From Alitabrizicola rongguiensis (GTDB lineage Bacteria; Pseudomonadota; Alphaproteobacteria; Rhodobacterales; Rhodobacteraceae), in the NCBI RefSeq assembly GCF_021491355.1, contig NZ_JAKENF010000002.1, positions 496,001 to 560,000 on the forward strand: DNA of 64,000 bases. The letters are read 5' to 3'. Both the position numbers and the translations under genes were made by a program. The stretch's first letter is position 1; every line of letters begins with the position of its first letter. The notes beneath the pieces are model-generated. The model was not told where the DNA came from. It searched no databases and was given only the letters and a program-made list of their open reading frames with translations. Positions 13,279 through 17,679 of this stretch are shown piece by piece.

Positions 13279-14271
13279 TCAGGTCGATGCGTGGAGGATG
13301 GCGCGCCCGCGTCCCTGCCGTTTGGCCTCGTATAGCGCGGCATCGGCATCGGCGAGCATCCGGTCGGACAGGACGCAGTCGTAACCGGTCGACGCCGCCA
13401 TGCCGATGCTGGCAGAGACCCGCGTCGAAACTCCCTGAAAATCCATCGGCTCCTCCAGCCGCGCGATGATGCGAGCAGAGATGAGTTGCAGCCGCTCGGC
13501 ATCGACGAGTCCGGGCAACAAGATGACGAATTCGTCGCCGCCGACCCTCGCCACCGTGTCGCCGGCACGCGTCTGCGCCCGCAGAACGCCCGCCACGCTG
13601 CGCAGGACATGATCGCCAGCCGCGTGGCCGAGCGTGTCGTTCACTGCCTTGAACCAGTCGAGGTCCAGATGCATGAGGCCGAACGGCTGCCCGCGCGTCA
13701 CCAGCTCCGCCAGGGCAAGATCAAGCGCCCGACGGTTGCGCAGGCCGGTCAGTGTATCGGTCATCGCCCGTTCTTCCGCCTCAGACCGGGCGCCTTCCAG
13801 GCGGCGATTCATGGCGCGCAACTCGCCCATCACGGCCGTCTTGGCCTCGATCAGGTACAGAAGCTCCATCGCGAGGTCGGTCGGCGCGAAATCCGCATCC
13901 GTAAGGTCGTGGTCGCGCACGGCTTCCGCAACCGTGATGCCCAAAGAAAGATTCAGCAGCAGCCCCTGACCTGCCTGCAGTGGAACGGCAAGGCCGCGAA
14001 GCGAGGTCCTGCCTTCACCGCGACGAACCAGATGCAGGCGGTCGCCTGTCCGCGCTGCGAGCGCAGCCATGTCGGCGATGTTCCCCGGACGGCCAACCTC
14101 GAACAGCGCAAAGAACTCCTGCCCGACGGCATCCTCGGGCAGAAGCTTGGCCAGCGTCGGTCCGACTTGGGCGATACGCCCGGTCTCGGTCAGCCAAAGA
14201 AACATCGGCATCAGCCGGGCCATCGAGCCAATGTCGAGCATCAGGCCCGTCAGGGTCATGCCGCCGTCCAT
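13279..14271 (-). CDS. Diguanylate cyclase with H-NOX-associated sensor domain
   Basis: A 330-residue protein. Residues about 15-120 resemble the PAS-like H-NOXA (HNOBA) domain ('[22 protein letters not shown]', '[12 protein letters not shown]'), residues 135-168 form a coiled coil, and residues about 168-328 are a complete GGDEF domain ('[12 protein letters not shown]', '[14 protein letters not shown]', active-site 'GGDEF'). A product-inhibition RxxD site ('RAGD') lies five residues before GGDEF, so it should make c-di-GMP with feedback control. Its start lies one base after the stop of the H-NOX-like gene upstream, implying coupled synthesis and a two-protein signalling unit. No EAL domain is present. 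Confidence 0.88.
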
Positions 14272-14272
14272 G

Positions 14273-14857
14273 TCAGGAGATCCCGGCCAGATCGAAGCGC
14301 CGCCCTTCCGAGAAGGTCAGGTCGAGAAGATCGATTCGGATGATTTCGCCTTCGGGCCATGCCCCCTCATGCTCCAGGATGGCAAGGCTACCGTAATCGT
14401 CGGCCATCGCGCGCAGAAGCCCAAGTATGACATGCCCCGTGCCGATGAGCGGAGACTTGCACATCAGGCGAAAGCGGTCTGACCTTTGCTCGCTCAGGGC
14501 GAGTTGCGGCAACACCAGCTCCGGCAGCGCCATGCGGGCCCGATCGGGCAGGTCGTCGAGCGAGTGCAGGAAATCGACAAAGCCGGTTCCGCCAAAGCGC
14601 AAAAGCCGGCGCAGCCGCTCCAGTTCGGGATGGGAGACGAGATAGGTTCCAAGATCCTCCAGCAAGGCATCGCGAGGGCGGTCCAAACGCTGCGCCGCCG
14701 CCGCGACGACACGGTCGGTCAGGCTATCTTCGTAATCGAGAAGCGCCTCGAAGCCATCGGGACCAAGTCCGGCGCGTGCGGCAACATCCAGCCAGACAGC
14801 CTCGCCATAGGTGCGACGAAGAAAGCCCTGAATAGAGCGGTTGAGCAACCCATGCAT
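14273..14857 (-). CDS. H-NOX-fold (HNOB) protein lacking the heme ligands
   Basis: The 194-residue protein aligns along its length with H-NOX domains ('MHGLLNRSIQGFLRRTYGEAVW' at the N-terminus, 'GFVDFLHSLDDL' before the proximal helix, 'LPELVLP', 'GLLRAMADDYG'). Where H-NOX proteins have the heme-ligating His ('LDxLH') this one has Pro104 ('LDDLP'), and the YxSxR heme-propionate motif reads Cys133-Lys-Ser-Pro-Leu137. The Pro codon was checked on the nucleotide sequence (14546-14548). It is therefore unlikely to bind heme in the usual way and so unlikely to sense NO through heme. It is directly upstream of the diguanylate cyclase, the usual partner of H-NOX sensors. Confidence 0.8.
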   Translation of the reverse strand: MHGLLNRSIQGFLRRTYGEAVWLDVAARAGLGPDGFEALLDYEDSLTDRVVAAAAQRLDRPRDALLEDLGTYLVSHPELERLRRLLRFGGTGFVDFLHSLDDLPDRARMALPELVLPQLALSEQRSDRFRLMCKSPLIGTGHVILGLLRAMADDYGSLAILEHEGAWPEGEIIRIDLLDLTFSEGRRFDLAGIS

Positions 14858-14973
14858 CTGCGCATCCCCGGTGTTTCGGGAAGGCTAGGTTTCGCGGGTT
14901 AACACAGAGGTAATCCGACCCCGGGGCATCCGGCCTGTCGCGAGCAGAATGCTACGAATTCTACTAGATAGGC

Positions 14974-16530
14974 TCAGAAATCGGTGGGCGCGCCGCCCTC
15001 CTGTTTTCGCCGCGCCACGAAGCGGCGCAGTTCCTCCAGGTGGTCACCGTTGATCGGTGGCGGTTCGAACTCGGCGAGAATCGCCTTGTAGATGCGGTGC
15101 GCCCGTTCGGGCGTCTCGACCGCGCCATCCAGTTGCCAGGCCTCGTAGTTGCGCCAGTCCGACACGAAGGGAGAATAGAAGGCGGTGGTGTAGCGCTCCT
15201 GCGTGTGCTGGCAGCCGAAATAATGGCCGTTTGGACCGACTTCTCGGATGGCGTCGAAGGCAAGGTCGTCTTCGGTCGTGGACCAGGTCGCCTCTTCGAA
15301 ATAGCGCTGGATCATCTGCAGCACTTCGCAGTCCATCACGAACTTTTCGGGGCTGGCGATAAGACCGCCCTCAAGCCAGCCGGCGGCGTGGTAGACCATG
15401 TTGGTGCCCGAGGTGACGGCGGCCCAGAGGCTGTTCGAGGTTTCCCACATCGCCTGCGCATCCGGGACGTTGGCGGCACAGACACCCGAGGACCGCATCG
15501 GCAGCTTGTAGAACCGCGCCAGCTGCCCGGTCATCTGGGTCGCGCGCATGTATTCTGGCGTGCCGAAGGCCGGCGCGCCAGATTTCATGTCCACGTTCGA
15601 GGTGAAGGTGCCGATCGCCACCGGGCAGCCCGGATTGATGTATTGCAGGAGCGCGATCGCGGCGAGGCCCTCGGCCAGAGACAGCGCCACTGCCCCCGAC
15701 ATGGTGACGGGCGCCATCGCGCCGGCCAGCGTGAAGGGCGTAACCACCACCGGCTGCCCACGCCGCGCAAGGCGCATCGCGCCGTCCAGCATCGGGAAGT
15801 CGTGCTTCAGCGGTGAGACCGAGTTGATGTTGGTATACATCCGCGGCTTGGCGCGGAACTCGTCCTCGGACAATCCGCCAGCGATGCGGACCATCTCCAT
15901 CACGTCCTCGACCCGCTCGGCGCCCAGAGAGTAGGCGTGACAAACCTTGTCGGTCAGCGTCAGCTTCTCGAAGAGGCAGTCGAGATGGCGGATCGAGGGG
16001 TGGATGTCGATCGGCTCCACTGGGTAGCCGCCGGCAATGTGGATGCAGTTGAAGTACTGCGTCAGCTTCATGAAGTCCTTGAACGTCTCGAAATCGCCCG
16101 ACCGCTTGCCGCGTTCGAGGTCCCAGGAATTCGGCGGGGACGAGACGTTGACGAAGACCATCTTCTTGCCGCCCATCACGATCTCGCGCTCGGGGTTGCG
16201 AGGCGTGATGGTGAAGCTGGCCGGGGCGTGGCCCAGCATTTCCATGACGAAGGCCTCGTCCATCCGGACATTGGTACCGTCGACCTTGCAGCCGGCCTTC
16301 TTCAGGATCGTCACGGCTTCGGGGTTCAGGAACTCGATGCCGATGTCGCGCAGGATGCGCATCGTGGTGCGATGGACCGCCATAACGCCGTCATGGTCGA
16401 GCGGTTCGGTCGGCCGGTCGGGGTTCTCGGGGATGCGCCACGGCATCTGCTCGATGGCCGCGGACCCTGCGCGCTGCTTGTTGCCCGCCCGTCCCCCGGC
16501 CCGCTTGCGCCGGCCTGCATCATCGTTCAT
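14974..16530 (-). CDS. MttB-family (trimethylamine/betaine) methyltransferase, non-pyrrolysine
   Basis: The 518-residue product belongs to the COG5598 family: an N-terminal basic tail, 'MRILRDIGIEFLNPEAV', 'HPSIRHLDCLFEKL', 'PVVVTPFTLAGAMAPVT', 'GCPVAIGTFTSNVDMKSGAPAFGTPE' and 'EVGPNGHYFGCQHTQERY'. It is read without an in-frame UAG, so it is a pyrrolysine-free homologue of the kind that, where tested, demethylates glycine betaine or other quaternary amines and passes the methyl group to a corrinoid protein. No corrinoid protein or reactivase gene is adjacent. Start 16530 is set by a GGCGGAG site. Substrate is not determined. Confidence 0.85.
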   Translation of the reverse strand: MNDDAGRRKRAGGRAGNKQRAGSAAIEQMPWRIPENPDRPTEPLDHDGVMAVHRTTMRILRDIGIEFLNPEAVTILKKAGCKVDGTNVRMDEAFVMEMLGHAPASFTITPRNPEREIVMGGKKMVFVNVSSPPNSWDLERGKRSGDFETFKDFMKLTQYFNCIHIAGGYPVEPIDIHPSIRHLDCLFEKLTLTDKVCHAYSLGAERVEDVMEMVRIAGGLSEDEFRAKPRMYTNINSVSPLKHDFPMLDGAMRLARRGQPVVVTPFTLAGAMAPVTMSGAVALSLAEGLAAIALLQYINPGCPVAIGTFTSNVDMKSGAPAFGTPEYMRATQMTGQLARFYKLPMRSSGVCAANVPDAQAMWETSNSLWAAVTSGTNMVYHAAGWLEGGLIASPEKFVMDCEVLQMIQRYFEEATWSTTEDDLAFDAIREVGPNGHYFGCQHTQERYTTAFYSPFVSDWRNYEAWQLDGAVETPERAHRIYKAILAEFEPPPINGDHLEELRRFVARRKQEGGAPTDF

Positions 16531-16598
16531 CGCTTCACTCCGCCTGATGCGCGTCTTTCCCAGACATTGGCGCAAGGATGACGGGCGAGACGAGTACT

Positions 16599-17333
16599 TT
16601 ACGACGCAACTGCGTCGTTTTTGGCATGAGCGCGCGCTGACGGGCGCTGCTGATCGTCGATCCAGGCCGGAAGGTCGCCGATGCTGGGCAGAACCGCTTC
16701 GGCGAGATGGGCCAGATCCTCATGCTCCGCCGGCCCGGTCAGCACGCCGATCGGCCGCATTCCGGCGGCCTTGCCGGCGACAAGATCATGGGTGCTGTCA
16801 CCCACCATCAGCACCTGCCCGGGCGCGACGCCCTGCGCATGGGCAAAGGCCAGAAGCATCCCCGGCGCGGGCTTGGCCCCATGGCCGGAATCGCTGCCGG
16901 CGATGAAATCGAACAGTTCCTCGACGCCGTGCGCAGAGAGATGCGCCCGCGCGGCCTCTTCCACGTCGTTCGTCGCCAGGCCGATCCGCAGGCCACGCTC
17001 GCGCAGCTGCAACAGAAGCAGTTCCAGAGGAACAGCCGGCACCATCTCGGCCTCGACGGCAAGCTGGTTGAAACGGGCAATCAGCGCTTCGTGCGTCGCG
17101 CCGGGAAGATGCGGCAGGACAGTCTCGGCGATCTCGTAGCTGGTCGACGTCACGACCGGGCTGTGCGGCGCGAAGACATCCGTCACAAGATCATAACCAA
17201 GCGCGGCGGCCATCGCATCGGCATGGGCCTCGTCTTGCGCGAATTCATCGAGCATGCTGCGCGTCCAGCGGCCCCAGCTCTTGCGGAAGTCGAAAAGCGT
17301 GCCGTCCTTGTCGAAGAGAACGCCCTTGATCAT
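16599..17333 (-). CDS. HAD-family phosphatase (Gph-like)
   Basis: A 244-residue HAD hydrolase: motif I 'FDKDGTLFD' with the nucleophile and acid/base Asp pair, motif II 'GLATND', a Lys in 'GAKPAPGML' and motif IV 'MVGDSTHDLVAG'. A helical cap lies between motifs I and II. This is the phosphoglycolate/beta-phosphoglucomutase subgroup layout, but substrate cannot be assigned. The ATG at 17333 starts the conserved fold; the frame to 17426 is not conserved. Confidence 0.82.
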   Translation of the reverse strand: MIKGVLFDKDGTLFDFRKSWGRWTRSMLDEFAQDEAHADAMAAALGYDLVTDVFAPHSPVVTSTSYEIAETVLPHLPGATHEALIARFNQLAVEAEMVPAVPLELLLLQLRERGLRIGLATNDVEEAARAHLSAHGVEELFDFIAGSDSGHGAKPAPGMLLAFAHAQGVAPGQVLMVGDSTHDLVAGKAAGMRPIGVLTGPAEHEDLAHLAEAVLPSIGDLPAWIDDQQRPSARAHAKNDAVAS

Positions 17334-17400
17334 CGCTTGCTTACCTGGCGCCGACTGAGAATGCGGGCACCCTACCCGCACGGCCAGCAATTGCAATCCA

Positions 17401-17679
17401 TCAGGTCCAGTTCCGCCCGGCTTCACCCAGAAGCATCAGATGCGCCTGCATGGGCTCGGAATAGGGTAGCCCTGCCTCATCGCAGAAAGCGGTCACCCTG
17501 GCATCCTCTTGCAGCAGGAACTCGAGGACCGACCGCAGGAACGCCGGCTGTGACGCGGCCTGCCGCAAATCGGCAGGCGAGGCACCGGTCGCGGCAAGAA
17601 AGGCCGGCAGAAGCTCGTGTTGCGACGCGATCCAGCCCAGGGCCCGAATTGCCAGCATCTCGGCAGAATCATGCTTCAC
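17401..17679 (-). CDS. DUF3572 family protein
   Basis: A short alphaproteobacterial family with 'AIRALGWIASQHELLPAFLAATGASPADLR' and 'ARVTAFCDEAGLPY' signatures; role unknown. I prefer the GTG at 17679 because GGGAG lies 11 bases upstream and family members usually begin with a Met-Lys-x-Asp sequence as here; the ATG at 17697 lacks a ribosome site. Product 92 residues. It is divergent from the PleD-like cyclase gene. Confidence 0.75.
   Translation of the reverse strand: MKHDSAEMLAIRALGWIASQHELLPAFLAATGASPADLRQAASQPAFLRSVLEFLLQEDARVTAFCDEAGLPYSEPMQAHLMLLGEAGRNWT

Follow-up and report, generated by a model that had tools for sequence, protein, structure and literature searches.

Canonical H-NOX proteins, such as those of Nostoc, Shewanella and Legionella (Hnox1, with Lpg1057), are small stand-alone proteins of the HNOB fold, which possess a proximal His and a YxSxR motif and for which heme/NO binding has been demonstrated; the Legionella protein occurs with a partner cyclase. 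The fold is also kept without a heme ligand, and beside a cyclase, in the H-NOX-like domain of the sGC alpha subunit. H-NOX mutants that lack the His are still able to take up heme when an exogenous ligand is present. In addition, signalling without heme has been described for the heme-free H-NOX of Vibrio cholerae, a protein that possesses the proximal His as well as a Cys/zinc redox site (PMC7108781).

The systems closest to the locus examined here belong to Group 5, a very large H-NOX cluster in which fewer than 10% of members have the proximal His, most have Pro in its place and no Cys is conserved (Lee-Lopez and Yukl 2022, Biosci Rep, PMC8738867). These authors called the mode of sensing in Group 5 unclear. 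Previously, Kumar and Spiro (2017, PMC5588039) reported that the H-NOX of Paracoccus denitrificans (Pden_3719/Pden_3720, members of Group 5) lacks the axial His, as does that of Rhodobacter sphaeroides, likewise a Group 5 protein, for which they cite Iyer et al. (2003). In P. denitrificans, the hnoX mutant was partly biofilm-deficient and the dgcAB mutant overproduced biofilm, and from these phenotypes it was proposed that H-NOX inhibits DgcA (PMC5588039). A 2025 study found that c-di-GMP was not measurable in this organism and described wide metabolic changes in the Delta-hnox strain (PMC12582929). In the accessible literature, we found no heme measurement, binding assay or cyclase assay of a Pro-type member.

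The H-NOX of Dinoroseobacter shibae (Dshi_2815) is reported to bind heme and NO, and its NO-bound form to inhibit the cyclase Dgc1 (PMC7232146, PMC8846402). Expression of hnox and its dgc is CtrA-dependent in both D. shibae and P. inhibens (PMC12363192).

An H-NOX-fold gene and its cyclase in Alitabrizicola rongguiensis

The window, i.e., the whole stretch of 64,000 nucleotides that was analyzed, contains an H-NOX-fold gene on the minus strand (positions 14273-14857; the earlier note had named no strand) that codes for a Pro-type protein of 194 aa. Residues 2-156 match Pfam HNOB (PF07700) with 79.6 bits (E = 3.3e-22; curated cut-off 25.5 bits); homology to H-NOX is far beyond chance. In the phmmer alignment with Nostoc Alr2278, the His of the NLH motif is paired with Pro104 of the window protein (Nostoc residue 105 in the family alignment mapping), whose codon, read on the minus strand at 14548-14546, is an unambiguous CCC. 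At the YxSxR position the same alignment places Cys133-Lys-Ser135-Pro-Leu137 (14447-14461, minus strand). Thus, the window protein has neither the proximal His nor the YxSxR motif of canonical heme H-NOX proteins. The earlier note had read all four of these points (alignment with H-NOX along the whole length, Pro at the His position, Cys-x-Ser-x-Leu in place of YxSxR and a clear Pro codon) from the sequence alone, and they held in every case. An HNOB search of this genome detected no H-NOX gene other than that in the window.

A structural model, which the earlier note had proposed as a check, gave a confident full H-NOX fold (AlphaFold2 with an alignment of 107 sequences; pLDDT 92.3, pTM 0.88). 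The top Foldseek matches were structures of Nostoc H-NOX (TM 0.79-0.80, rmsd 2.5-2.6; TM 0.80 for 2o09), followed by sGC beta1 and other H-NOX structures. As judged from this model, the fold is complete and only the heme-binding residues are missing. One of the matches, PDB 2kil, is the S. oneidensis H-NOX carrying the H103G substitution, a mutant that has reportedly served as a model for the NO-activated state.

The H-NOX gene is followed on the same strand by a diguanylate cyclase gene (13279-14271, 330 aa). The hnox stop codon occupies 14275-14273, and a single base (14272) separates it from the cyclase ATG at 14271, in agreement with the earlier note. The cyclase also proved intact, as had been claimed: it matches PF00990 with 140.6 bits and has both the GGDEF active-site motif (13528-13542) and the RxxD motif of the inhibitory I-site (RAGD, 13558-13569), in which R235 is invariant and D238 nearly invariant among orthologs. 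The model (pLDDT 95) consists of a PAS-like N-terminal domain (residues 14-110; 13942-14232), a long connecting helix (residues 133-169; 13765-13875) and the GGDEF region, and its best structural matches were PAS-GGDEF and other GGDEF structures. The assignment of the N-terminal domain to the H-NOXA type, made in the earlier note, holds for the family, in which 50 of 70 cyclase orthologs match HNOBA (PF07701; best E = 6.7e-13), but is marginal for the window cyclase taken alone, as its own match (E = 0.088) falls below the cut-off.

On the other side, the pair is adjoined by genes for a trimethylamine methyltransferase-like protein (MttB, 14974-16575) and a HAD hydrolase (16599-17426). The gene order in D. 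shibae is identical, and MTTB and HAD proteins are listed as H-NOX neighbors in a figure legend of Lee-Lopez and Yukl (PMC8738867). Like most members of Group 5, the window protein has Pro for the proximal His; as in that cluster, its subfamily has no conserved Cys and its gene adjoins a GGDEF gene, and no difference between it and Group 5 was found. It should be noted that neither nirS-type cytochrome d1 nor nirK was detected above cut-off in the whole genome that contains the window, which suggests that NO is probably not produced there via denitrification.

Distribution of the subfamily and replacement of the proximal His

HNOB model searches yielded matches in 224 of 298 Rhodobacteraceae genomes (approximately one per genus), and with the window protein as query, relatives were detected in 163 of the 198 genomes sampled from Rhodobacterales. 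Outside Rhodobacteraceae, a 385-genome sample of the class contained distant matches only (24-29% identity). Some genomes have, besides the subfamily member, a second, canonical and higher-scoring H-NOX. We collected and aligned approximately 230 subfamily members, with divergent members deliberately added. Wherever the downstream sequence was sufficient (224 loci), a GGDEF gene was found downstream of hnox (224/224; 165/165 for Pro-type members), and the exact GGDEF motif was present in 223 of these 224 genes. The most common junction of the two genes is a 4-base overlap of stop and start (120/226). The dN/dS ratio, calculated for 21 non-overlapping pairs of Pro-type proteins, had a median of 0.091 (range 0.047-0.212). 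Pro-type H-NOX genes are, therefore, under strong purifying selection and always found beside the cyclase. In two H-NOX genes of the group (L233 and G274:C24:241161-241622), the HNOB frame is interrupted by a TAA, and these might be pseudogenes or assembly errors. For the window gene, a sequencing error or a recent pseudogene was rejected in view of the CCC codon, the presence of Pro in most relatives and the dN/dS of about 0.09.

A promoter element is retained as well. A CtrA-like site, TTAC-N7-TTAA, is located upstream of hnox (14899-14913, minus strand), and its position is kept in 177 of 229 relatives. When a match was defined as at least 6 of 8 positions identical to TTAA-N7-TTAA, 187 of the 229 upstream regions contained one, versus approximately 47 expected from shuffled sequences, and the matches clustered 55-64 nt ahead of the hnox start. 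Between -90 and -35, the site was found in 139/169 members of the Pro type and 19/23 of the His type. By contrast, it was not recognizable (0/7) in a separate lineage in which Ala occupies the His position (L173, L175, L179, L180, L187, L188, L189), which suggests an independent replacement of the His, coupled with a regulatory change.

The count of residues at position 104, another check proposed in the earlier note, gave Pro in 171 members and His in 23, followed by Gln (9), Ala (7), Arg (6), Ser (6), Asn (5), Gly (2), Thr (1) and Glu (1); the approximately 231 entries leave out the canonical L002 and count the window sequence twice, and as sampling was tilted to divergent members, His is over-represented, if anything. 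Thus, the window H-NOX is an ordinary member of a mostly His-less Rhodobacteraceae subfamily and not an oddity of one genome. The change in a single protein that the earlier note had implied did not stand, since Pro is the rule in Rhodobacteraceae and this has been published twice, in 2017 and 2022 (PMC5588039, PMC8738867); with regard to the missing His of Group 5, the window observation is an independent rediscovery.

In a FastTree phylogeny built without alignment column 104 and rooted with canonical H-NOX, the root of the subfamily was reconstructed as His, and Pro arose on the stem branch leading to a 201-member clade (support 0.90). A smaller IQ-TREE analysis gave the same order, with His-bearing lineages basal and the Pro clade later (support 90), deep branches within the Pro clade being poorly resolved. 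At least 38 changes at position 104 are required on the FastTree tree. Most of the later states (Gln, Arg, Ser, Thr and His) are one base away from a Pro codon, and 166 of the 201 members of the main clade have Pro. Such a strong preference would be less expected from mere decay and hints that Pro itself has a function. One canonical-type, high-scoring H-NOX from the same family (L030) has Gln aligned to the proximal His, which may reflect an alignment shift or a further loss of His. We also considered a link between His retention and denitrification and rejected it, as nirS/nirK was not significantly more common with His keepers (8/20 versus 12/45, p = 0.38; a small sample, with phylogeny ignored).

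The D. shibae H-NOX (L112 4804-5385, minus strand), from a genome recognized as that of strain DFL 12 by a plasmid matching at 100%, is an ortholog of the window protein, as shown by both the tree and gene order, and is 46% identical to it. In both loci, the pair is flanked by mttB-like and HAD genes and the cyclase lies downstream, and the D. shibae pair is CtrA-dependent. Unlike the window protein, the D. shibae protein retains the proximal His (DDLHDR), and its motif reads C-x-W-x-R instead of Y-x-S-x-R. If the published D. shibae assays hold, YxSxR seems to be dispensable for heme/NO function. As the NO sensor supported by experiment at this locus is a His keeper, it cannot speak for the Pro-type majority.

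YxSxR was lost across the subfamily, including most His keepers, and in Pro-type members its positions are near-random (positions 135 and 137 have entropies of 3.1-3.5 bits). In contrast, Gly70, Pro117 and Gly146 are essentially invariant in the subfamily; E67, D68, G70, P117, G146, D153 and Y155 are among the residues conserved in Pro-type members, and most such residues show the same degree of conservation in the basal lineages that have His. Among potential ligands, only M1, Y42 and Y155 are shared by more than 90% of Pro-type members, and no His, Cys or Lys reaches this level. The most common Cys, C133, occurs in 66%, so there is no conserved Cys, and the Cys set of the V. cholerae redox site has no counterpart in the subfamily. 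The earlier note had named His98 as a possible substitute ligand. The window protein does have this residue. Across the Pro-type members, position 98 is occupied by His in approximately 69%, the remainder having Leu, Tyr, Gln or other residues, and His98 co-occurs with His104 in 10 of the 23 His keepers; it did not, therefore, arise as compensation. Being found both with and without His104 and not being invariant, His98 was rejected as a replacement ligand. Since no other His is conserved above 90% either, Pro-type H-NOX is likely to be heme-free, as judged from sequence. Thus, the broader suggestion of the earlier note, that an H-NOX fold can be used without heme, gains from a fold kept without proximal His or YxSxR, from purifying selection and from the constant pairing with the cyclase, and what it loses is the substitute ligand.

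Possible functions of the Pro-type proteins

The reading we prefer, to which we give about an even chance, is that Pro-type H-NOX descended from a heme/NO sensor and, resembling the NO-activated form, serves the cyclase as an inhibitory subunit that works independently of heme. The ancestor would have been a heme/NO-sensing H-NOX like that of D. shibae, whose NO-bound form inhibited the adjacent cyclase; NO would break the Fe-His bond and H-NOX would then inhibit the cyclase. With the change of His to Pro, heme-NO switching would have been lost and a heme-independent regulatory subunit would have taken its place. Having no Fe-His bond, the fold might be permanently in the NO-induced state or be driven into it by another cue, and the cyclase would be held down through the H-NOXA/helix region, with the pair under CtrA-type control. 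That the P. denitrificans hnoX mutant underproduces and the dgcAB mutant overproduces biofilm is what is expected if H-NOX inhibits DgcA. The His-to-Gly mutant of the Shewanella H-NOX mentioned above offers a precedent for such a state. However, the strong preference for Pro counts against this reading, as do the many other conserved residues, which are compatible with a further ligand.

It is possible, though in our opinion rather unlikely, that the pocket vacated by heme binds a small metabolite, a lipid or another tetrapyrrole, and that the Pro-type protein acts as a sensor on the cyclase. The strong purifying selection, the retained fold with conserved residues such as those listed above and the wide metabolic changes in the Delta-hnox strain of P. 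denitrificans (PMC12582929) would all fit such a sensor. However, no ligand is on record, and the conserved residues, being mostly the same in His-bearing basal lineages, may serve the fold or the contact with the partner. A purely structural function of H-NOX, in which it stabilizes the cyclase or shapes its dimer but transmits no signal, appears very unlikely. It could explain the obligate pairing (224/224) and the translational overlap, and the sGC alpha subunit offers a precedent, as its H-NOX-like domain adjoins a cyclase and has no heme, although that domain is fused, eukaryotic and partnered with the heme-binding beta subunit. In P. denitrificans, mutation of hnoX and mutation of dgc have opposite effects on biofilm (PMC5588039), which argues against this explanation and against a cyclase whose activity needs H-NOX.

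We consider it unlikely that Pro-type H-NOX still holds heme in the cell, whether by means of another residue or with no protein ligand, and thereby keeps NO sensing. The uptake of heme with an exogenous ligand by His-less mutants makes heme without protein ligation possible in these proteins. Moreover, the D. shibae H-NOX, which lacks YxSxR, is reported to bind heme and NO, so the motif seems not to be needed, and in the model of Kumar and Spiro the biofilm response of P. denitrificans to NO passes partly through H-NOX (PMC5588039). The residue patterns point in the other direction: apart from M1, Y42 and Y155 no candidate ligand is conserved, His98 is no replacement and position 104 has changed to Gln, Arg, Ser, Thr or Asn in some members. 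Nor are His keepers significantly richer in nirS/nirK.

To what was published on Group 5, the present analysis adds the order of events, with His first and Pro on the stem, the contrast with D. shibae, the linkage to a cyclase at all loci covered, the evidence of selection, the CtrA-like element common to the loci and the rejection of His98. It also supplies concrete pairs of His- and Pro-bearing orthologs for the published question of how this group senses. We would only tentatively extend the preferred reading, heme-independent inhibition, to the statement that, across the whole family, what had been a heme/NO sensor became a permanently 'NO-state' inhibitor free of heme, or a sensor of a new ligand, acting on the same cyclase, with promoter and partner kept. 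If true, the His-keeping and His-less orthologs at one locus would represent a natural series on the rewiring of H-NOX. Most Rhodobacteraceae carry the H-NOX/cyclase pair, and reviews tend to label the pair as a heme-based NO sensor, in part because of the His-keeping D. shibae protein. Our survey indicates that this label should not be extended to the Pro-type majority.
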